Positions 195 to 13,518 of a stretch of DNA of 64,000 bases are shown here, in pieces (the stretch's first letter is position 1; each line of letters begins with the position of its first letter). This DNA comes from Paracoccaceae bacterium (GTDB taxonomy: Bacteria > Pseudomonadota > Alphaproteobacteria > Rhodobacterales > Rhodobacteraceae). The notes below the pieces were generated by a model. It saw nothing but the letters and a program-made list of their open reading frames with translations, was not told the DNA's origin and searched no databases. Position numbers and translations under genes: made by a program. Where the stretch lies: NCBI GenBank assembly GCA_022824005.1, contig JAJEBG010000019.1:1-64000 (forward strand), given 5' to 3'.

Positions 195-3173
195 TCATTC
201 TTTGACCATTTCTGAGACGAGTTGTTCAATGATTCCCGTCAGCGATCCATGGTTCTGCCGCTCAGCTTGGCGCGCCGCACGAATTTCGATATCCGCTTTG
301 GCGGAACCCGTTGGATATTTTGCCGCCAGTTTAACTCGCGCCGCCCGAGCTCCGAGCCTGTCGGTGAGACTCTCACGAAGGAGAGAATCTTCGGCTGTGG
401 TTGACAAAGCCCAGAGTTCAGCGGCACCAAGCGTCAGATAGAGGAGTTGGCGGGCCACACCTTTGGAATGTCGAATCACGGCAAAAAATGGCGCTCCCTC
501 TTCAGTCGGCCCGTTGAGTTGATGACGCAAAACTTTCATTTCAGCGTCACTCAGACCAAATCGTTTGGCAAGGAAAGTCGCGGTGGATTCAGAGGGCGCA
601 TCAAATATCAACATCGTGGAGACCACATCCAAGATTTCTGAACCAAAATCACTCGGCAATTGCGAGGCGAGGGCAATGCGAATATTATTCTTGCGGCCTT
701 CACGGGCATCTTGAAGAATCTGTCGCCGCAGGCCGGCCAATCCACCGGTACGATGAAACTCATCAATGCAAAGCAATTTAGGGATAAATGGATTTGTCTT
801 TGCCGCTTCAAGATGAAAAGCCTGATAAGCGGGCGGGCAGGTGCCATCGGCGAGGGCTTTATTGATTTCGCTGCGACTGACGAGCCAATGGCTCACCATG
901 GATTGTCGGGCTAACATATACATAAGTGCAGCCTGTCGCGTGGCGTTGGCACCCCCTTGAAATCCGCCAGTCACCTCCTCAAGATCAAGGGCCGCGATAC
1001 GCGCCGGGCCGACATCGAATCGTGTGGGGGCCGAAAGAATACAATAGTCACGCATGGCCTCAGCGATAAGACGATGAAAGGCGTTCATAACCGGCTCGTC
1101 ACTCCCCGGCACACGGGCTTGTGAGTAGAGCGAGGCGATGGGGTCGGCATGACTTGCCGTGATCAGGTCAGCGAGAACTGGCACAGCTCTTGTCTGTGCT
1201 TTCTGAGCCGCCCCCTTAAAGCCCATTGAAAACAGAGCATCTGTGGCTTCCCACCATGTGCCTATGTCATTTGATGACAACCCCGCCTTTGCTATGGCCA
1301 AGTCAACTTCTGGTTCATCGCCCTCAATATATGGTTTTGGATTGTTGCTATCGCGGACATCCTCAAACGCTTGGTCCAATGAAGCGGTCGCGACCCCGGT
1401 GATGGGACATCGCGTCGTTTCTGACCCACATAACAGACTCAAAAAGTTGACCATGAACGAGCGACCCTCTGCCAGTGGACGCCGCAGACCGAGGAAGGTG
1501 TCGAAGGGATTGATGGCATGTTCCACTGTCATTGATAATTTGAGGTGAGCCGCCTCGAGGCGGCGGTCGGCTGGCAACGAATCGCGGATGAGATCAATAA
1601 ACCCTTTTGATGATCGCCCAATGTCAAGGATGGCGATTCGCGGCAATTCGGCACGGGACGAGTCAACCGCGTGCGGCGCGAGCAGGCAGCTGCGATTGAT
1701 GGCATGCATTGCCACAGATTTGCCTGAACCCGGCGTACCCGAATAAATTTCAACCCAATTGTTCTGGCGTGATGAGCCGGGCCAATACGGCCAGATTTTA
1801 CCATCTTGTGAACGAAAGATCACCGGCCCCTCTTTCCACGGACTCGCTTGCCTTGCCATCGGCAGCATCGCCAAAGCGTCAGAGAGGGGCGCAGCGACAG
1901 ACGGGGCGGTCGCTTCTGGGCCAAGTCCAGCGGACGTGGCAAGAAGGGCGGCCACTGGATCGGCGGATATGCCATCGGTGGAGAGATTACCCCATTGCTC
2001 GGCGGCGCGCTGCAGAATGGCCCTTTTGCGGCGCAACTCGGCCCCCTCATGAACGCGTGACCATGTGGCAAATGATAGGCGCAGGCGCACCACTGTGTCG
2101 CCCGCCCCGTCGAGTTCTCTCAAAGCCGCGATGGCATCGCGGATGCGTGCGTTACGAAGGGGCGCAGAGAAAGCAAAAAGTCTGGCCAGTTGTTCCTTGA
2201 GGCGCAGGGCTTGCAAACCGCCTGGCTCGATCAAAAAGCGACATCGCCATGACATGGGCATTGGTGATGCCAAGGTTTCGGCCACCAAATCATTAAATGG
2301 TGTGAGAATTTCTGGCGCAACCGTCACATCAAAGGCAGAAAAAATCGTATCGCCCATACGCACCGAGCGGCTATCGAGAACTTGGACATCCTCCGTCGCG
2401 AGTTGTTGATCAAATGACGGTGCGGCGAGATTCGAGAAATCACCGAGCTCCATTTCAACGTCACGGGCCGGCATCATGGCAAGGCGGTTTTTCTTGGCCT
2501 GACGCAGAGAGAGATGAAACGGCAATTTCGGTGTCCATTCCGTTTTCCATGGGGCAGAGAATGGATAGAGCGCGGCGCGGATTTCTTGCAAAGCTTCAAC
2601 CACGTCGAGCTTGCGAGCTTTGCGACCTCGATTGTGGAGATCTCGGCACAGAGCGTCGGTCAAGGTCTGATGACGTGCCACCATATCATTCGTCAAGGAA
2701 GGCGCATTCAGACACCGCTCTTCGGGTGTCGAGGGATACCTCCGATCAGCATGGAATTCATCAAGGGGGCGCGTGTAAACTATGCAAAGGCAGGTTTCGC
2801 CCACGAGAACATTTGACCATCTATCGCCGCCATCCGCTATAATATCCGATAGATCCAATCCCAGGTCATGGGCGCGGCGGTTCTGGCGCGCCACAATTTG
2901 CTCGACATGCCGATAGGCCGCGGCCGGATCTCTGGAAAAGAAGAGTTCAATCGCATGGCCCGGACGGGAGAGAAGAGGCGCGAGGGACACACGAAGACTT
3001 TGTGCGAATTGGGTCAACTCTGAAGGGTCTTCAAGCCGCATCGCCCCATCAATACATAGGACCGACATCAACGAGCCGTCCTTCAACGTTAATGCGTCAC
3101 GGTCATCGGCTGATTCAAGACGGATCCGTTGAGCAAGGCTGGGGCCGAGTCCCAAATCGTCGAAAAAACTCAC
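195..3173 (-). CDS. icmB: IcmB/DotO-like (TraU-type) ATPase of an I-type/T4BSS conjugation system
   Basis: 992-aa ORF; Walker A GTPGSGKS, Walker B-like LLCIDEFHRT; size and position next to IcmJ- and IcmD-like ORFs as in Dot/Icm loci. Confidence 0.8.
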   Translation of the reverse strand: MSFFDDLGLGPSLAQRIRLESADDRDALTLKDGSLMSVLCIDGAMRLEDPSELTQFAQSLRVSLAPLLSRPGHAIELFFSRDPAAAYRHVEQIVARQNRRAHDLGLDLSDIIADGGDRWSNVLVGETCLCIVYTRPLDEFHADRRYPSTPEERCLNAPSLTNDMVARHQTLTDALCRDLHNRGRKARKLDVVEALQEIRAALYPFSAPWKTEWTPKLPFHLSLRQAKKNRLAMMPARDVEMELGDFSNLAAPSFDQQLATEDVQVLDSRSVRMGDTIFSAFDVTVAPEILTPFNDLVAETLASPMPMSWRCRFLIEPGGLQALRLKEQLARLFAFSAPLRNARIRDAIAALRELDGAGDTVVRLRLSFATWSRVHEGAELRRKRAILQRAAEQWGNLSTDGISADPVAALLATSAGLGPEATAPSVAAPLSDALAMLPMARQASPWKEGPVIFRSQDGKIWPYWPGSSRQNNWVEIYSGTPGSGKSVAMHAINRSCLLAPHAVDSSRAELPRIAILDIGRSSKGFIDLIRDSLPADRRLEAAHLKLSMTVEHAINPFDTFLGLRRPLAEGRSFMVNFLSLLCGSETTRCPITGVATASLDQAFEDVRDSNNPKPYIEGDEPEVDLAIAKAGLSSNDIGTWWEATDALFSMGFKGAAQKAQTRAVPVLADLITASHADPIASLYSQARVPGSDEPVMNAFHRLIAEAMRDYCILSAPTRFDVGPARIAALDLEEVTGGFQGGANATRQAALMYMLARQSMVSHWLVSRSEINKALADGTCPPAYQAFHLEAAKTNPFIPKLLCIDEFHRTGGLAGLRRQILQDAREGRKNNIRIALASQLPSDFGSEILDVVSTMLIFDAPSESTATFLAKRFGLSDAEMKVLRHQLNGPTEEGAPFFAVIRHSKGVARQLLYLTLGAAELWALSTTAEDSLLRESLTDRLGARAARVKLAAKYPTGSAKADIEIRAARQAERQNHGSLTGIIEQLVSEMVKE

Positions 3174-4624
3174 GAAGGAAACCGCGCGAGGGCCGCTTCA
3201 AGTTGATCAAGTTTTTTGCCTTGTCGAGATTTGCCATTGCCAGCTATCTCGTCCATTCGCCTCACTAGTCCGCACAGACCAAGTTGCGAGGCGACCGCCA
3301 TCATCGCATCGCCTTCCTGTCCACCAAATTCATTGGATTGAGCTTTGAGATCAATGTCCTGCTTCTTCAAATGGCGGGCCAATCCAACAGGGAGGTGATG
3401 TCCGGTCTGCCACAGAACGCTGACGACACGAGATATCACCTCGCGTTTATTCTCAACTGCAAAAGTGAGCGAGCCGCCTTGTGCAGCCAAGAATTTTGCC
3501 CCCTCTGCTTCGGCTGCCTCAATCGCGTTGACGCTCTCGAGCCGATCGTTAACCGCGATCCAGATCGCCTCCATGGCGGCCAATGGACGAAGCGTTGGGC
3601 GTTGGATGCATAGGGCGCGAAGGTTGTTTTCAATCGCCAATTCGGCCGAAAATGCGCAGCGTGCCGAGCGTTCACTTCCACACGCGGCGATCACACCTTG
3701 TATCAGCTGATTTAAAACTGTGTTCTTATGAGGGCGGACGAAACCCTGACCTGCGTAGATATGCGTGACAAAGAAATGGCCCACTTTGCGCATCAAGGTG
3801 ACCTCTGGCAAAGTGAACCAGTTCCGACCCCAAGTTGGATCTAATCCTTGACACCAACTATGCACCCAAGCGGGTGGCATGAGTTTATGTGATTGAAACG
3901 ATCCCTGCACGATCACGGGCTTTTTCAGTCTGACCAATGTCGCTTCCGTCTCGTCTGATAGGGGCTCACCCTTATGCGGGCATTCAATTTTCTGCCATTC
4001 ACGTCCCGATGGATAATCCTGTTCGGCCAATTGTTGAAGATAACTGAATTTTGGCCGTATCACCTTGACGATCACGCTATCCTCAAAATGTCTGACCCCT
4101 CGGCTTCTGCACCCGTAAAGAAGGAGCGACATGCCATTCTCGGCAAGGCATGAATGTTTGGGCGTGGAAGGCACAAGCAAGGGTCGCCAATAATCGGCCA
4201 AGGCCAGCGCGAGACTGGGTCGACCAAAACTGCGGCGATGATGGAGTTGTTGGCCGCTATGGATCCAATGATCACTCTTGGTCACAGCACAAACTGATAA
4301 CCGAATGATCCGCTCACTCATTGTCGCCAAATGGATCATCTCTGAAACCGACGGGCAAGCGCTTAATCCGCAATCATGAAGAATGTCTCGCCATCTAGCG
4401 CCTAACCAACCATCGGAGTGAATGACGCGATTGATTTTACGCCTGTCGCTGATGGTTTGTGCTTCTTCGTATGAGAGGTCGGTCAACCAAAATCCATTGG
4501 GCAATTGGGCCGCCTGGCTGGTGACAAATTGACCCGACTTAACCACAGAAAGTCGGCTTTGATCAGGCAAAGCCAATGACACACCAGGGCGGGTCGGCAA
4601 ACGTCGTGTCGGACAGAGATTCAC
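3170..4624 (-). CDS. uncharacterised 484-aa protein inside a T4BSS operon
   Basis: Long ORF; 4-nt overlap with the IcmB-like gene and 10-nt gap to the IcmJ-like gene imply co-transcription; no family recognised. Confidence 0.75.
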   Translation of the reverse strand: MNLCPTRRLPTRPGVSLALPDQSRLSVVKSGQFVTSQAAQLPNGFWLTDLSYEEAQTISDRRKINRVIHSDGWLGARWRDILHDCGLSACPSVSEMIHLATMSERIIRLSVCAVTKSDHWIHSGQQLHHRRSFGRPSLALALADYWRPLLVPSTPKHSCLAENGMSLLLYGCRSRGVRHFEDSVIVKVIRPKFSYLQQLAEQDYPSGREWQKIECPHKGEPLSDETEATLVRLKKPVIVQGSFQSHKLMPPAWVHSWCQGLDPTWGRNWFTLPEVTLMRKVGHFFVTHIYAGQGFVRPHKNTVLNQLIQGVIAACGSERSARCAFSAELAIENNLRALCIQRPTLRPLAAMEAIWIAVNDRLESVNAIEAAEAEGAKFLAAQGGSLTFAVENKREVISRVVSVLWQTGHHLPVGLARHLKKQDIDLKAQSNEFGGQEGDAMMAVASQLGLCGLVRRMDEIAGNGKSRQGKKLDQLEAALARFPS

Positions 4625-4633
4625 GGCTTGGCC

Positions 4634-5362
4634 TCAAATTTTGCGCATTTGATGCTCATGAACGAGACGGCGCAACGCCAATGGTGGTCTCTGATGATCG
4701 GCGAGAAGCTCCGATGGGATGGCGTGGAAATCCCCCTCACGCCAGTGACTCAGATCGGCTGTTCTCGGCAATGATATGTTGAGAACGCGGTCGGTGGCGA
4801 CAGGCCAGAACCGAACATACTGATCCAATCTTTTGACCGTCTTGATATAGGCTTTTTCACCCTTGAGGCGCTTGAGCGAGCGCAAAGCCTCAATGAATCC
4901 AACGGGGTGAGTGCCACCGATGATGTCGGCCAGAATTCGCTCGCGTCGGTGCGTCGCCTTGACCACGCTTTTAGCGGCTTCCGTCAATTCCTCGTCGATC
5001 AATTGTCCCGTGGTCGTGGGAGATGCGAGCAAGACTTGCCAAGCCATGATATTGAGCAAAATTTGTGACGATTTTGGGGCCCAGATGAGACGCAATCGCC
5101 CCCTTTGAGCCGCCCAGACTAGGTGTCGAAGTTGGTGACAAAATTGACAAATCGTGCGGATTTCATCAACACCACAGGGCTGGTGACCGGCGAGATGGTC
5201 GACTTCCATGAAATGCCGCAAGCGAATGCCACATATATGGCATGTCCAGTCATCGCGTTCACAGCAAGCATCAACGGCATCGGCCATTTGTGCCGCCAAG
5301 ACAGCATGACGACGGGCACCCATCAGCAACCTGTCCCACTTCGTGTTGAAAAGCGATTGCAA
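4634..5362 (-). CDS. icmJ: IcmJ/DotN-like HNH-type zinc protein
   Basis: CHICGIRLRHFMEVDHL...CQFCHQLRHLVWAAQRGRL motif; listed ORF runs to 5482 but that would overlap the upstream gene by 116 nt; TTG at 5362 is a better start. Confidence 0.65.
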   Translation of the reverse strand: MQSLFNTKWDRLLMGARRHAVLAAQMADAVDACCERDDWTCHICGIRLRHFMEVDHLAGHQPCGVDEIRTICQFCHQLRHLVWAAQRGRLRLIWAPKSSQILLNIMAWQVLLASPTTTGQLIDEELTEAAKSVVKATHRRERILADIIGGTHPVGFIEALRSLKRLKGEKAYIKTVKRLDQYVRFWPVATDRVLNISLPRTADLSHWREGDFHAIPSELLADHQRPPLALRRLVHEHQMRKI

Positions 5363-5366
5363 CACG

Positions 5367-5726
5367 TCAATTGATATTGCGAAGCGAGCCGTCGACCGAC
5401 ACATTCGTCGCACCGGTTCCAAAGAGCGAGCCAATTCCGACGCCAAGAGTCGTGGGAACGGCCACAAGGGCCGCGCCGACAAAAACCAAGGTAAAGGCTG
5501 TCGAGAGTCGCGCCGAAGGATCGTTTGGGTTTTGCGAATGTTGCCGAAATTTCAGCAGGCCTATCATCGCGATGCATATGCCGAGCAAGAACGCCGCGGC
5601 ACCAATCAGATCGGCAATGTCCCCCGCTTGCGACTGCAATCCAGACGCCATGTCACCAATATCTACGACTTGCGTCCAACCCAGAGTGGGTATTAGGCAA
5701 ATCAAACCGACAATTATCCATTTCAT
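5367..5726 (-). CDS. small two-TM signal-peptide protein, IcmD/DotP-like
   Basis: 119 aa; N-terminal signal and two hydrophobic segments; located directly upstream of the IcmJ-like gene. Confidence 0.6.
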   Translation of the reverse strand: MKWIIVGLICLIPTLGWTQVVDIGDMASGLQSQAGDIADLIGAAAFLLGICIAMIGLLKFRQHSQNPNDPSARLSTAFTLVFVGAALVAVPTTLGVGIGSLFGTGATNVSVDGSLRNIN

Positions 5727-5991: not shown

Positions 5992-6369
5992 ATGAATGAA
6001 GTTGAGTGTCCTGCTGATCAGTCTCAAACCTTAACCAAGCGTCATTTGAAGGGACTAGAATGGTCCGACCATGAAGTTGAGACTTTAATCGCCGCATGGA
6101 AATCCCGAATTTCCTTTAAAAAAATTGCCCGTAAGATTGGACGCAGCCGGAAATCTGTCGTCATCAAAGCCTGTCGATTGGGTCTGACCGCGCGGCCCTA
6201 CTGGAATGACCAATATGTCGAGAACGCCCGCCGCAACGGACGCTCTCGACGCTGCTTAAACTGCCGCAATATTTTCTTTTCAGAAAACTCTGGAAATCGC
6301 ATTTGTTTGCAATGCAAAGACCGTCAAGCTTGGCAAGCCGGCAATGACCTCGCCGGACCGAGCGGCTGA
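5992..6369 (+). CDS. Myb/SANT-like HTH protein with C-terminal zinc ribbon
   Basis: WSDHEVETLIAAWKSRISFKKIARKIGRSRKSVVIKACRLGL plus CLNC...CLQC; ATG at 5992 preferred over the listed 5875 start. Confidence 0.6.
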   Translation: MNEVECPADQSQTLTKRHLKGLEWSDHEVETLIAAWKSRISFKKIARKIGRSRKSVVIKACRLGLTARPYWNDQYVENARRNGRSRRCLNCRNIFFSENSGNRICLQCKDRQAWQAGNDLAGPSG

Positions 6370-6380
6370 GGATTGAACCC

Positions 6381-7577
6381 ATGAAAGGGCGACCGCGCGG
6401 CCCTATTCCGCCGACATGGATTAGCGAAGTTAAAGCGGCTCTGCCCTTGCGGGAGACGATTGAACGATTGGCAAAGGTCAAATTTGATCGCGCCGATGGG
6501 CACCAAGCCAAAGCCTGCTGTCCCTTTCATCAAGAGCGAACCCCCTCCTTCTTCGTTAACGAAAGAACCGGGCGCTACCGCTGTTATGGCGCCAGTTGTG
6601 GTAAGCATGGCGATGTCATTCAATTCATCGCCGATTGGCATTCTTTGACGTTCAGGGAGGCCATCCTTCAGGCTCGAGAACTCGCGGGACTGCCGACTGA
6701 GTGGGATGGCAGGGCAGCACGAAAGCCAACCTTTGTTGATTCCAACCGCGCCATGTGGCGACAAACCATCCCCCCACCACCGCTGCGATCGGTGGCCCTC
6801 AAGGCGATTCCCGACTCTGTCGATTTGCCACGTCTTGGTGAGTGGGTCACCATCGAGGATGAACAGAGAAGCCGGCCCATCCGAATAAAGCCAACGCATG
6901 TCCACGTCTACAGAAACGAGCAGAACTATCCCCTCTGTCTGGTGTTGCGCTCACCGACACAAAAAGGTGGAAAATTCTTTGTGCAGACTGGCTGGCAAGC
7001 GGGCAGATGGAAACTCATTCGTTTTCCTGGCCTTCGCCCCATCTATGGTCTCGAGGACATGCCAGAATGGTGCCAAAACCGTGGCGAGAAGATTTTAATC
7101 GTCGAGGGCGAAACAACGCGGGAGGCCGCCGCCAAACTTCTGCCCTTGGCATCGACAGGCTATTTGTCATTAACAACGATGGGTGGCGGCAACGCGATCA
7201 ATCGCGCCGATTGGCAACCGTTGGTGAAAAGACTCGCCGAGGATCAAGAGGTGACACGGCGTTCAATTGCCATCACCGTTTGGCCCGATGCTGATTTATC
7301 ATACGAAGATCAAAAGGGGCATCATATTGACCCACAATTCGCCTATTTCAATCGCGTTAAAGCCTCCCTAATGACCTTTGTCGACCGTTACCCAAGCCTC
7401 GCCAACTCTCTCACCTTTTCGCGAGTCAAACCCCCAAAGGCGGTACCGAAAGGATGGGATATCGCTGATGCCATGAAGGAGTGTTGGTCAGGCCAAAAAC
7501 TGTTGTCGTGGATCTCCCAATCAACGGTGACAAGAAATGATCCAGAATATCCATCCCATAGTGATCTCACCATTTGA
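6381..7577 (+). CDS. CHC2 zinc-finger / TOPRIM primase (plasmid or ICE type)
   Basis: CCPFHQERTPSFFVNERTGRYRCYGASCGKHGDVIQFIADW (DnaG-type zinc finger) and EKILIVEGETTREAAAKL (TOPRIM). Confidence 0.85.
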   Translation: MKGRPRGPIPPTWISEVKAALPLRETIERLAKVKFDRADGHQAKACCPFHQERTPSFFVNERTGRYRCYGASCGKHGDVIQFIADWHSLTFREAILQARELAGLPTEWDGRAARKPTFVDSNRAMWRQTIPPPPLRSVALKAIPDSVDLPRLGEWVTIEDEQRSRPIRIKPTHVHVYRNEQNYPLCLVLRSPTQKGGKFFVQTGWQAGRWKLIRFPGLRPIYGLEDMPEWCQNRGEKILIVEGETTREAAAKLLPLASTGYLSLTTMGGGNAINRADWQPLVKRLAEDQEVTRRSIAITVWPDADLSYEDQKGHHIDPQFAYFNRVKASLMTFVDRYPSLANSLTFSRVKPPKAVPKGWDIADAMKECWSGQKLLSWISQSTVTRNDPEYPSHSDLTI

Positions 7578-7620: not shown

Positions 7621-8610
7621 TCAAAGGGCGTCTTCAACACTGTATGGGCAGGCGACACGGCGCTGATCAGAGATTGGAGTCATGGGAGGCATCTCGTGAG
7701 CGCAGGCCTGCCGCGCGATAATGCAGCGGGTACGGAAAACGCAACCCGAGGGGGGATTCAATGGGGATGGGATCTCCCCCCGCAATAACTTTTGCCGGCG
7801 CGGCCCACCCGCGGATGGGTCGGGAGATGGGATACTTTCAATCAGGGCTTGTGTGTATGGATGGCGGGGCTCTTGCACCACTTCACGGCTCGGTCCCTCT
7901 TCAATCAAATGACCAAGATACATGACTGCAATTCGGTCAGAAACATGTTGGACGACGGAAAGGTCATGGGCGATAAAAATCATTGACAGACCCAACTCCC
8001 GTTGCAGGCTTGTCAGAAGATTGATGATTTGCGCCCGCACCGAGACATCCAAAGCTGACACGGCCTCGTCACAGATCAGCAATTTGGGTTTGAGCACGAG
8101 CGCCCTTGCGATGGCGGCTCGTTGACATTGTCCGCCGGAGAATTCGTGGGGATAACGGTTGATATGGGAGGCATGAAGGCCCACTCTCTCGAGCATCTCT
8201 AGGATGTGCTCCTGCCGCTCATTGCGCTTCATGCGGGGACAATGGGTTCGTAATGGCTCCTCAATGATGTCACCGATTGTCATGCGCGGATTGAGCGCGG
8301 CGAGAGGATCTTGGAACACCATTTGCACATCTTTGGCAGAGGCGCGCCGTTCATGGGCCGACATTTGCGAAAGATTTTGGCCTCGCCACACGATAGCTCC
8401 CGTTGATGTCCTCACGATACCGACAATGGCTTTGGCCAAGGTCGATTTTCCTGATCCACTCTCGCCAACAATACCGAGCGTCTCACCTTCAAGCAGCGAA
8501 ACGCTGATATTGGATACGGCGCACAAGAGAGATGGAGGTCGCCAAGGCCAAGCATGGCGACGCCGTACCCGGAAAATCACCGAGATATTCTCAATTTGAA
8601 GCCCCGCTGT
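7621..8610 (-). CDS. oppF: oligopeptide ABC transporter ATP-binding protein OppF
   Basis: Walker [10 protein letters not shown], signature SGGQCQRAAIARAL, Walker B LLICDEAVSALDVS; ATG at 8610 overlaps oppD end. Confidence 0.85.
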   Translation of the reverse strand, partial: TAGLQIENISVIFRVRRRHAWPWRPPSLLCAVSNISVSLLEGETLGIVGESGSGKSTLAKAIVGIVRTSTGAIVWRGQNLSQMSAHERRASAKDVQMVFQDPLAALNPRMTIGDIIEEPLRTHCPRMKRNERQEHILEMLERVGLHASHINRYPHEFSGGQCQRAAIARALVLKPKLLICDEAVSALDVSVRAQIINLLTSLQRELGLSMIFIAHDLSVVQHVSDRIAVMYLGHLIEEGPSREVVQEPRHPYTQALIESIPSPDPSAGGPRRQKLLRGEIPSPLNPPSGCVFRTRCIIARQACAHEMPPMTPISDQRRVACPYSVEDAL

Positions 8611-9581
8611 CATGGAGGATTTCTGGGTTGGGCTAGTGGGCGATGACACGCATAACGGCGTCTTTCAATGGATTCCATTTTCGGTAACGTGGTCCGGCAA
8701 ATTGATTGAACAGAGTCACATCTGTCGTGAAAGGGACAGCCGAGGGGTAATTCTGTCATCAGAGGCGGCTCTCCGCCAATCGTCGGGAGGTCTTGGTGAC
8801 ACGCATCAAGGCTTAGGATCGCGGAAAGAAGACCTGACGTGTAAGGGTGTAGCGGGGACTTGAACAGCGTCTCGGTTCCTCCCGCCTCCATCATTCGTCC
8901 GCCGTACATGACGAGGGTGCTTTCACAAAATTCGGCGACAATGCCCATATCATGGGTGATCAGAATCACGGCCATGCCAAACTCGTCTCGGAGCGAGGCT
9001 AGCAAATCAAGGATTTGACGTTGAACGGTCATATCCAGCGCCGTCGTAGGTTCATCGGCGATAAGGATTTCAGGGCGGCAAAGGAGAGCCATCGCGATCA
9101 TCACTCGTTGGCGCATGCCGCCCGAGAATTGATGGGGATAATTGTTGATGCGGCTCACTGCATCGGGAATTTGCACCGCATCCAGCATACGAAGTGACTC
9201 CGACAACGCGTCTTGGCGTGACATGGATTGATGATATTGAAGCACTTCGGTCATTTGATCAGCGATTCGCATGTACGGATTCAATGAGGTCATCGGGTCC
9301 TGAAAAACCATCGCAAGTTGACGCGCCCGAACTCGGTTGAGCTCGCCCGCCGGCCGGTTGAGAATCTCTTTCCCCTTGAAACGGACAGAGCCAGAAGCAT
9401 ATCCGTTGCGGGCAAGAAGTCCGAGAATGGCAAACGCGGTTTGTGATTTTCCGGAACCACTTTCGCCCACTATGGCAAGGGTTTCATGGGCATCCAATGA
9501 AAAGGATAACCCATTCACGGCATTCACCTGACCATCACCTGTTTTGAACCAGACTTTGAGATTGTGGACATCCAGTAGCAT
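8610..9581 (-). CDS. oppD: oligopeptide ABC transporter ATP-binding protein OppD
   Basis: [37 protein letters not shown]. Confidence 0.87.
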
Positions 9582-9693
9582 GTCAATTCTCTATCCCGAT
9601 CAATGGCACCAATACAGAAGATTAATTTGATCCCTCACTGAATTAACGTCTCGTGGCCAGCAAATGTTTGTCTTTGAGGATGAACCATCCAAA

Positions 9694-10620
9694 TCATCGA
9701 TCTTTTGGGTCAAGGGCATCACGCAAACCATCGCCAATAAATACGAAGGAGAAAATGGTCACGACAAAAAAGAAGAGAGGGAAGAGCAATTGCCAGAGCG
9801 TGCCATACGACATCTGACTCGCGCCATCATTGATCAATACGCCCCATGAGGTCGCCGGCTCTTGAACGCCGAGACCAAGAAAGGAAATGAACGACTCGTA
9901 AATGATCATGGAGGGCACCAGTAGTGTCGCGTAGACGATCACAACGCCCATGAGGTTAGGAAAAATATGGCGCAAAATGATGATGATCGGCTTCACCCCC
10001 ATCGCAGCGGCGGCTTCAACAAATTCTTTTTTCTTGATCGACAACGTTTGCCCTCTAGCGATGCGTGAGATGTCCAACCAAGAAATCAGACCAATACCTA
10101 TGAACAAGACGAGCATCGAGCGGCCAAACATGACCAAGAGTAAGATCAAGACAAACATGTATGGAATGGACATAAGTATATCGACCAACCGCATCATCAA
10201 TCCATCAACTCGACCGCCCACATAGCCCGCGCAGGCGCCATAGAATGTACCGACAACAACGGCGATGAAGGCACCGACAATTCCCACCATCAATGAAATT
10301 CGGGTGCCTTGCGCGGTGCGGGCGAACAAGTCTCGTCCCAACTCATCGACACCAAAATAATGCCCATTCTGCCAACTCGGTGCGCCCTGTTCACGCACAT
10401 TGCCCAACAAGTTCCAATCAATATCTTCGTGATTCCATGCCGCAATATGGGGTCCGAAAAGAGCAAATAACACGACTAAGAACAAGGCCACGAGTCCGCC
10501 GGTGGCGGCACTGTTCTGAAAGAACCTGTCCCTCGCGTTCCGCCATAGGGAGCGGTTCGGAATTGATACGAATGTCAAAAACTTTTCGCTGCGAAGAAAG
10601 AGATTGGCCCCCTTGAACAT
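9694..10620 (-). CDS. oppC: oligopeptide ABC transporter permease OppC
   Basis: BPD-transport permease; EAAAAMGVKPIIIILRHIFPN motif. Confidence 0.87.
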   Translation of the reverse strand: MFKGANLFLRSEKFLTFVSIPNRSLWRNARDRFFQNSAATGGLVALFLVVLFALFGPHIAAWNHEDIDWNLLGNVREQGAPSWQNGHYFGVDELGRDLFARTAQGTRISLMVGIVGAFIAVVVGTFYGACAGYVGGRVDGLMMRLVDILMSIPYMFVLILLLVMFGRSMLVLFIGIGLISWLDISRIARGQTLSIKKKEFVEAAAAMGVKPIIIILRHIFPNLMGVVIVYATLLVPSMIIYESFISFLGLGVQEPATSWGVLINDGASQMSYGTLWQLLFPLFFFVVTIFSFVFIGDGLRDALDPKDR

Positions 10621-10623
10621 AGG

Positions 10624-11547
10624 TCAATATCTTATGCGGGGATCGATCCAAGCGTAAAGAATATCTACCACCGTCGTAAACAGAATGGTCAGCGTGCCCA
10701 CCAAGATGGTGACTCCCATCATCACTCCATAATCCCGGCTCAGGGCCGCGTTGGTGAAGAATTGACCAATACCGCCGGTGCCAAAATAATAATCGATGAT
10801 CATCGATCCGGTAATCATCGCCACAAAGACCGGCCCAAGAAAAGAAATGACCGGAAGCATGGCCGGTTTGAGCGCATGCCGCCATATTACGCTCGTCCCA
10901 TTCAATCCTTTGGCTCGCGCCGTACGGATAAAGTTGGAGTGAAGAATCTCCAGCATCGACGAGCGCGTCATACGCGCCACAGAGGCCATGAAACTTGTCG
11001 AGAGGGCGATAACCGGCATAATGACATACTCAATTTGCCCCCCCTGCCAACCTCCTCCGGGAAGCCAACCGAGCCACAGCGTAAAAATCAACACCAAAAT
11101 GGGGGCCATGACAAAATTGGGGAGAACTTGCGCTCCGATTGAAACGCCCACCGCGAGATAATCCAACCAACTGTTTTGGTGCACGGCGGCCGCCACACCG
11201 AGGGGAATACCGACGGAAATGGCCACAATGAAGGCCCAAAATCCATAGGTTAAGGTCACTGGAAAGCCCTGCAAAATGATGTCCCTGACACTCAAATCCT
11301 TGAAGACGAACGAGGGCCCAAAATCGAAATCTGTCACAAGATCAAAAAGATAGGTGCCGAACTGCCGCGCCAACGGTTCATCCAGACCATATTTGGCCTC
11401 AAGATTAGCCATCACTTCATCCGGCAATGGCTTCTCGGTCGTGAACGGGCCGCCCGGCGCGAGATGCATCAGAAGGAATGTGGCGGCGATCAGAATAAAT
11501 AATGTGGGGAGCGCAATCAGCAATCGTCGTAAAATGAATTGAAACAT
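10624..11547 (-). CDS. oppB: oligopeptide ABC transporter permease OppB
   Basis: MFQFILRRLLIALPTLFILI; RTARAKGLNGTSVIWRHALKPA motif. Confidence 0.88.
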   Translation of the reverse strand: MFQFILRRLLIALPTLFILIAATFLLMHLAPGGPFTTEKPLPDEVMANLEAKYGLDEPLARQFGTYLFDLVTDFDFGPSFVFKDLSVRDIILQGFPVTLTYGFWAFIVAISVGIPLGVAAAVHQNSWLDYLAVGVSIGAQVLPNFVMAPILVLIFTLWLGWLPGGGWQGGQIEYVIMPVIALSTSFMASVARMTRSSMLEILHSNFIRTARAKGLNGTSVIWRHALKPAMLPVISFLGPVFVAMITGSMIIDYYFGTGGIGQFFTNAALSRDYGVMMGVTILVGTLTILFTTVVDILYAWIDPRIRY

Positions 11548-11597
11548 GACTATCTCAGACCATTGGCGAGCCAGCTCAACACCTCAATGCGGAGATG

Positions 11598-13208
11598 TCA
11601 TGGGGCCGCCATATAGAGATTCTTCGAATACCAGTTGTTTTCAACATTGTTGAGCGGCCAGCCTTTCAGCGCAGGCACCTTCATAAATACCTGGCTGTAA
11701 TGGTAGATGGGTATGAGTCCCATCTCATCGGCGAGTATTTGCTCCACCTCCGAATAGGCTTTTTGCGGGTCAATTTCAGACGTGGCCGATTTTGCCATCA
11801 GTTCATCAATGCGAGCATTGGTGAATTTTCCATCGTTGAAATCATTGTCACTGGTGACGAGTTGGAGAAAGGTAGATGCTTCGTTGTAATCACCACACCA
11901 ACCCGACCGGGCGATATCAAAATCTTGGTTTGAGGCCTTGTCTAGAAAAGTTTTCCATTCGAAATTCTCGAGTGTCACACGGACCGCGAGTTTTTCTTTC
12001 CACATCTGGCTAATGACATTGGCAATCGCCTTGTGACTCTCGGATGTGTTGTAAATCAGTCGCAACTCAAGGGCGTCACCGTTAGAACCAAATCCGGCCT
12101 CGACGATCAACTCTTTGGCTTTGGCATCGCGTTCAGCTTGGCTTAAGGTGGCATAACCAATATCGGGCATATCGAAGCCAGATGTAGCCCAATGGGTAAA
12201 ACTGTAGGCGCCTCTCTGTCCCCCCTTTAGCACCTGATTAACAATCACATCTCGGTCAATGGCATACGAGAGGGCCTGACGGACGCGCACGTCGTCAAGC
12301 GCCGGATTGCCCGATTCGCTCTGATTGATAACATAATAGTAGGTGCACAAGAGCGGCATTGAAAACGTTTGGTCTGGATATTTGTCTTTGAGATTGGGAT
12401 ATTGACCCGCTGGCAAGCCATCAAGATGGTCAAACTCACCCGCAAGATAACGGGTTAAGGCCGTATTGTCATCGTTGACAATGATACCGGTCACCTTCTC
12501 AATGATGACATTGTCGGCATCCCAATAGAGGGGATTCTTGATACGACTGTGATATTCGGCCAGCACCAAATCTTGCAAAACATAGGCACCGTTCGAGACC
12601 ATATGGCTTGGCCGCGTCCATTCATCACCAAGTCTCTCAATGGTGGCTTGGTGAACAGGCATCAGGGTCGCATACGTCGTCATGCTTGGGAAAAATGGCA
12701 CAGGGGCAGACAGTTGCACCTGCAAACGATAATCGTCAAGGGCCGAGACTCCGAGTTGGTCTGGTGGCATGTCTCCAGCAATAATTTCACCGGCATTTTT
12801 GATTTGACCCACCTCCAGATACCACGAATAAGACGACGCGGTTTCAGGGTCGACGGCGCGCCGCCAAGCATAAACAAAATCATGCGCCGTCACAGAGTCT
12901 CCATTCGACCATTTTGCATCTTTGCGAAGATTGAATATCCAAGTTCGGTTTCCATCTACCGATGACCAATCGGTGGCCACACCCGGGGTCAAATCACCAT
13001 TCTCGTCCTGCGTGGTGAGACCTTCGAACAAATCACGAATGACGCTGAATCCCGCCGAATCTTCGTTCAATTGTGGATCAAGCGATGGAAACTGGTCAAG
13101 CAATCGGTAGGTGAATTCCTGATTCTCATCGAGGTGGTCGGCCGCCATACTGCCACAACCGAGGACCGCCGTGGCGGCTATGACCAAACCGAAATAACGT
13201 AATTTTGG
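11598..13208 (-). CDS. oppA: peptide ABC transporter substrate-binding protein OppA (SBP family 5)
   Basis: Signal peptide; HLDENQEFTYRLLDQFPSLDPQL..., typical SBP_bac_5 order; first gene of opp operon. Confidence 0.87.
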   Translation of the reverse strand, partial: PKLRYFGLVIAATAVLGCGSMAADHLDENQEFTYRLLDQFPSLDPQLNEDSAGFSVIRDLFEGLTTQDENGDLTPGVATDWSSVDGNRTWIFNLRKDAKWSNGDSVTAHDFVYAWRRAVDPETASSYSWYLEVGQIKNAGEIIAGDMPPDQLGVSALDDYRLQVQLSAPVPFFPSMTTYATLMPVHQATIERLGDEWTRPSHMVSNGAYVLQDLVLAEYHSRIKNPLYWDADNVIIEKVTGIIVNDDNTALTRYLAGEFDHLDGLPAGQYPNLKDKYPDQTFSMPLLCTYYYVINQSESGNPALDDVRVRQALSYAIDRDVIVNQVLKGGQRGAYSFTHWATSGFDMPDIGYATLSQAERDAKAKELIVEAGFGSNGDALELRLIYNTSESHKAIANVISQMWKEKLAVRVTLENFEWKTFLDKASNQDFDIARSGWCGDYNEASTFLQLVTSDNDFNDGKFTNARIDELMAKSATSEIDPQKAYSEVEQILADEMGLIPIYHYSQVFMKVPALKGWPLNNVENNWYSKNLYMAAP

Positions 13209-13518
13209 CATTGTCACTCTCTTGCCTGTCAATTTTTTGGCTCAACCCAGATATGGTGTGAGAACTTTACATTCGGAGGAGTAGACATTCAATTGTCTTA
13301 GCTTCAACACCCATTATGGAACCTTTTCGGTGTGCGTATCAGACCATGGTGTCATTTCCGCTTGGAGAGGACATAACAGAGAATTTTCACCCCGACCTCT
13401 CTCAGTGATGATCCTTTTGCTCATTCCAAGGCAAAAAGCGATACACCTTCATGATCAAAATTGATTTTGTCCATCTTTTTTCAGTCCAAATAAAATTTTT
13501 AGCCAGCATGATTCTTTA

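Follow-up and report, generated by a model that had tools for sequence, protein, structure and literature searches.

The window, i.e., the whole stretch of 64,000 nucleotides that was analysed, begins with the first base of contig C40 (G000:C40) in a 2.26-Mb draft genome, and there is no DNA leftward of it. Its first 5.7 kb are occupied by a single tight operon on the minus strand, in which icmD is followed by icmJ, by the gene of a 484-residue protein (protein X) and by icmB (Table 1). The four reading frames lie where the first-pass annotation had placed them and in the order that it had given. Its assignment of the block to a type IVB secretion system (T4BSS) is borne out by the matches of IcmJ to DotN in the PDB and of IcmB to annotated and Legionellales IcmB proteins.

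Table 1. Features of the icm block and of the adjoining divergent genes (positions in the window)
Feature	Position	Strand	Evidence
IcmB/DotO, VirB4-class ATPase, 992 aa, GTG start	195..3173	-	full-length tblastn matches, Walker motifs
Protein X, 484 aa	3170..4624	-	14 loci, AF2 model, Foldseek, motif residues
GTGA overlap, X stop/icmB start	3170..3173	-	sequence
IcmJ/DotN, 243 aa, GTG start	4634..5365	-	PDB DotN match, NCBIfam NF038221, alignment
IcmD/TraQ-like small membrane protein, 119 aa	5367..5726	-	weak TraQ_IncI1 match; family profile
GcrA-like regulator, divergent, probable start ATG 5992	5992..6369	+	Pfam GcrA, E 9.8e-8
Primase-like protein, CHC2 zinc finger and Toprim-like C-terminal region	6381..7577	+	Pfam Zn_ribbon_DnaG, E 1.1e-19

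The best start of icmJ is the GTG at 5365, 1 nt past the icmD stop at 5367; its open frame extends up to 5482, and a start at the upstream TTG there was rejected because it would give a 116-nt overlap with icmD. The GTG start of X is preceded by a Shine-Dalgarno-like GAGG box and lies 9 nt past the icmJ stop, and its TGA overlaps the GTG of icmB by 4 nt (junction sequence CTTCGTGAG); the overlap with icmB and the abutting of icmJ had been annotated. The GTGA overlap makes translational coupling of X and icmB likely.

The open frame of the GcrA-like regulator extends from 5875. A GcrA-like gene occurs in 10 of the 14 loci that carry X (see below) and a primase-like gene in nine; the GcrA-like and CHC2/Toprim-like primase genes stand divergently beside the block in most of these loci (L014-L016, L031, L034, L038-L041, and L044), and the pair also lies within a second T4BSS of genome G003 (L030). 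Adjoining the block at 7621-13232 (minus strand) is an apparently ordinary oligopeptide-type ABC transporter operon, its first ATPase being assigned by Pfam.

The conserved proteins of the block and the rest of the machine

The large reading frame had been proposed as a member of the IcmB/DotO family, and its full-length match to annotated IcmB places it there. In tblastn it matches thousands of plasmid records over its full length, several of them annotated as IcmB (33-39% identity for the best ones), and it aligns end to end with IcmB of Legionella and Coxiella (34-36% identity). The Walker A (GTPGSGKS) and Walker B (LLCIDE) motifs are present in its sequence. The protein has no match in the PDB, so its identity rests on annotated homologues. 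The IcmJ profile matches the PDB entry of DotN (5x1h) over residues 35-195 with E 2.8e-10, and the NCBIfam family IcmJ_DotN (NF038221) is matched with E 8.5e-8, at a score under the curated cut-off. IcmJ displays a zinc/HNH-like pattern, CxxC...EVDH...CxxCH; in the X lineage the pattern (CxxC, M-E-[VI]-D-H, CxxCH, H) is kept, while it is partly lost in the aligned Legionella DotN, and the Pfam and PHROG HNH families are matched near E 0.001. Direct matches of the IcmD-like protein are weak (TraQ_IncI1, E 0.0065), and a profile made from it detects icmD-like genes in most of the Legionellales loci, in the place expected from synteny.

Further components are encoded on other contigs of the same genome: DotI, DotH, a DotG-like TrbI protein, and DotM (DotM_C) on C32, DotD, DotC, a DotB-like T2SSE-type ATPase, and an IcmT-like protein on C5, and a DotL-like TraG-D_C protein in a 1001-residue open frame on C23. 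Of the proteins by which type IVB systems are recognised, IcmB/DotO, IcmJ/DotN, DotH, DotG, DotC, DotD, DotI, DotB, DotM, and DotL are all present. The machine is chromosomal and near-complete, in scattered blocks. Near DotG/H/I and DotM on G000:C32 (L026, L138) lie genes for a PilS/bundlin-type pilin, a weakly shufflon-like protein, and T2SSE/T2SSF proteins, resembling an IncI thin-pilus set.

In four genomes (G001, G002, G017, and G062, the last also with ptsN) an hpf homologue is located close to the IcmB block, a neighbourhood that argues for a stable chromosomal site. Relaxases of the MOBP and MobA/MobL families were not found in the window's draft genome, nor was a complete relaxase of the TrwC family; a TrwC-family fragment with an internal stop is located at G000:C58:11981-12229 (L168). 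The system is a chromosomal one of Rhodobacteraceae-type Alphaproteobacteria, and not an IncI-type plasmid system.

Distribution and inheritance of protein X

A search of genome contigs with IcmB yielded 80 named loci. In these and further genomes taken together, protein X adjoins icmB in 14 distinct loci, all alphaproteobacterial and mostly from metagenome-assembled genomes (MAGs) of Rhodobacteraceae/Paracoccaceae; the X-bearing MAGs include Rhodobacteraceae, Paracoccaceae, Boseongicola, Hasllibacter, and one unplaced alphaproteobacterium. Wherever the contig extends far enough, icmJ precedes X. In several of the MAGs, pieces of genes may be missing owing to draft assembly. Among 148 relatives, X is present in six, which belong to the same family and each possess IcmB, and it was never found without IcmB in the same genome. 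Evenly drawn samples of the order (395 genomes) and of the class (385 genomes) contain X in the window's own genome only. In one X-bearing relative, G017, icmB extends over two frames, and one match contains an internal stop (L015, G017:C35:23519-26750); the gene is either truly broken or wrongly assembled at this place.

Protein X was not found in about 65 loci of Legionellales and other Gammaproteobacteria, where icmJ is usually followed directly by icmB, in keeping with the contiguity of these genes that had been noted for Legionella. It is likewise not found on the conjugative plasmids examined (Martelella, Aminobacter, Shinella, and Komagataeibacter), and tblastn of X against plasmids gave no match. 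Genome G003 carries a second T4BSS that lacks X and has icmJ abutting icmB; its order is icmD-icmJ-icmB-dotM-gcrA-primase, then dotH (L030/L066, G003:C142).

In the IcmB tree, a single branch (98/96, recovered in 97% of bootstraps) separates all X-bearing rows from the others, and the tree of X is broadly similar. X is co-inherited with one IcmB clade. For close pairs, dN/dS amounts to 0.30-0.37 for X, 0.15-0.21 for IcmB, and 0.18-0.29 for IcmJ; X is under purifying selection, which, like its recurrence with the same neighbours in 14 loci, speaks against a chance reading frame.

Predicted fold of protein X

The first-pass annotation had recognised no domain in X. This holds for the sequence libraries, as Pfam, NCBIfam, and PHROGs gave no credible match, but not for the predicted fold, which resembles that of a family-B DNA polymerase (PolB). 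Two weak matches, to Cas1 (E 0.0035 over 28 residues) and to COMM-domain proteins, were judged to be due to chance. Aligned with ten phage protein-primed PolBs (pPolBs) in hhalign, the X profile was not significant in any mode (probability about 0.1%); in a pPolB HMM search X ranks with the background and not above random ORFs, and the colinearity of the weak X/pPolB segments is not better than in control families. As no sequence method gives a polymerase signal, no homology is claimed at that level, and the putative ancestry rests on predicted structure.

An AlphaFold2 model made from 12 aligned members has a pLDDT of 85.5 and a pTM of 0.88; it is the one usable model of X, a single-sequence model of the L041 homologue having a pLDDT of 34. 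In a Foldseek search of the PDB with the X model, phi29 DNA polymerase takes ranks 1-8 (E 2.3e-6 to 2e-4, probability 1.00), followed by archaeal PolB1 at rank 9 and then by other PolBs. Against viral models the top matches are nearly all PolB, mainly protein-primed, plus poxvirus M21L, which we take to be a homologue of F12. The TM-scores of 0.36-0.42, with an rmsd of about 9 A, lie under the usual threshold for a whole fold, and values of about 0.4 indicate a partial or domain-shifted match. From the model we infer an exonuclease-palm-fingers-thumb layout, as in family-B DNA polymerases of the protein-primed type, and X probably descends from such a family-B polymerase. This predicted ancestry is the least certain part of the interpretation.

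The residues of the presumptive active site may be located in the model. A helix of 23 residues (351-373), a three-residue loop, and a hairpin (377-382/385-391) correspond to the palm helix and the motif-C hairpin of the polymerase. Just one segment of notable length emerges from hhalign (X 353-374 with phi29 427-448, not significant); it has the same register as the model, setting AAQGGS of X opposite YCDTDS of phi29. In all 14 X proteins x(A/G)Gx replaces DTDS, with glycine at the position of the second aspartate, which shows that the motif-C carboxylates of the polymerase are absent from every member. The apparent motif A, in a strand and helix at 183-200, has no conserved aspartate; it was initially placed at the strand 237-245 and moved to 183-189 after a maximum-accuracy alignment, the assignment being our own reading. 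Only two acidic residues of X are invariant, E274 and D458, and they lie in different subdomains. Judged by these residues, catalysis by X is very unlikely.

Possible role of protein X and comparison with known systems

On balance, X is best explained as an exapted, catalytically dead polymerase-like protein that serves as a dedicated component of a chromosomal, vertically inherited T4BSS of the Rhodobacteraceae type, between IcmJ and IcmB. Having lost catalysis, it would act on the cytoplasmic face without enzymatic activity, as a scaffold or as an adaptor that holds substrates, and may touch both IcmJ/DotN, in the coupling complex, and the IcmB/DotO ATPase, each from a different side. Since its gene is co-translated with icmB and lies next to icmJ, X may be a structural partner of both the coupling complex and the ATPase; the suggestion of a contact with IcmJ or IcmB comes from the position in the operon. 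A role as machine component or adaptor is plausible, and the earlier proposal of an undescribed, co-translated component of the machine has survived all tests made, X standing beside icmB in 14 loci and matching no named conjugation protein. A more tentative account of its history, close to evenly balanced, is that an alphaproteobacterial T4BSS acquired, in a single event, a protein-primed-type PolB that probably came from a mobile element; after the loss of its catalytic residues, this protein would have become a constitutive link between the coupling complex and the IcmB motor.

The likeness to polymerases might itself be an artefact or a convergence, X then being a lineage-specific T4BSS protein with a fold of its own. 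Support for PolB at the level of sequence is nil, the TM-scores are moderate, and the usable model is a single one, from 12 sequences; however, the confidence of that model is high, the leading matches are PolBs without exception in the PDB search and with few exceptions in the viral one, and the hhalign segment shares the register that places AAQGGS on YCDTDS. This reading appears rather unlikely. Activity of X as a DNA polymerase or exonuclease, priming or completing the DNA to be transferred, would agree with the predicted fold and with the primase-like neighbour, but it is hardly credible for a protein that lacks the motif-C carboxylates in 14 of 14 members, has no conserved aspartate in the apparent motif A strand, and retains only E274 and D458, in different subdomains, as invariant acids.

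If the machine moves DNA, X could instead be a nucleic-acid-handling part placed at the channel entry, where it would bind single-stranded DNA or guide it. The pI is 8.8-10.7 in 11 of the 14 members, a CHC2-type primase-like gene is adjacent in 9/14 loci and present in the second T4BSS of G003, IcmJ of the X lineage retains the HNH-like pattern, and IncI-type thin-pilus genes (PilS/bundlin, T2SSE/F) occur with DotG/H/I in the same genome. The mostly basic character of X, its primase-like neighbour, and the HNH-like IcmJ thus leave room for such a role, but three members are acidic or neutral (pI 5.4-6.8), and the window's genome has no MOBP or MobA/MobL relaxase and only the interrupted TrwC-family fragment; this explanation, too, is regarded as rather unlikely. 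Far less probable is a hitch-hiking cargo gene with no role in the machine: X does evolve faster than IcmB and IcmJ, but it has been retained beside icmB across a deep clade, with overlapping translation and purifying selection, and never without IcmB among the 148 relatives.

As a dedicated part of the machine, X would be a new lineage-specific component added to the T4BSS family. The loci also reveal intact-looking chromosomal Dot/Icm-like systems in MAGs of marine, partly sponge-associated Rhodobacteraceae; full-text searches of an open-access library found no paper on T4BSS in this group. If the structural reading is true, secretion has recruited the fold of a DNA polymerase for a part that is not an enzyme, and if the capture is true as well, X is a polymerase-derived component of a secretion machine and a bacterial counterpart of poxvirus F12. 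With X beside an HNH-like IcmJ and a primase-like gene, the assembly of T4BSS coupling modules from DNA-processing enzymes becomes testable.

With the Dot/Icm systems of Legionellales the present one shares homologues of IcmJ/DotN and IcmB/DotO and the order of their genes, as well as DotB, DotC, DotD, DotG, DotH, DotI, DotM, DotL-like, and IcmT-like proteins encoded elsewhere in the genome. It differs in that X lies between icmJ and icmB, the genes are spread over several chromosomal blocks, a GcrA-like and a primase-like gene are neighbours, thin-pilus genes of the IncI type are present, and IcmJ is more HNH-like. IncI/MPF_I conjugation systems, including those of rhizobial and acetic-acid-bacterial plasmids, resemble it in IcmB (33-39% identical) and in PilS/shufflon-type pilus genes; they are without X, whereas the present system has X, is chromosomal, and lies in a draft genome where no complete relaxase of the MOBP, MobA/MobL, or TrwC families was found.

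The phi29 protein-primed PolB appears similar to X in the predicted overall fold and in the register of palm helix and motif-C hairpin, but X is about 90 residues shorter, has no catalytic motifs, and shows no detectable sequence similarity. Reuse of a dead PolB has a precedent in chordopoxvirus F12, an inactivated PolB with a role in transport and morphogenesis (PMC4304020), and one such poxvirus protein, M21L, was returned when the X model was compared with viral models; unlike X, F12 belongs to a eukaryotic virus and has a similarity to phi29 polymerase that is detectable by HHPred. A search of the PDB with the X profile, including the coupling-complex entry 6sz9, gave no sequence match to DotY or DotZ. 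In Legionella, DotN is a platform for these lineage-specific partners (PMC7280309), and by analogy the position proposed for X would be that of a lineage-specific partner of DotN.
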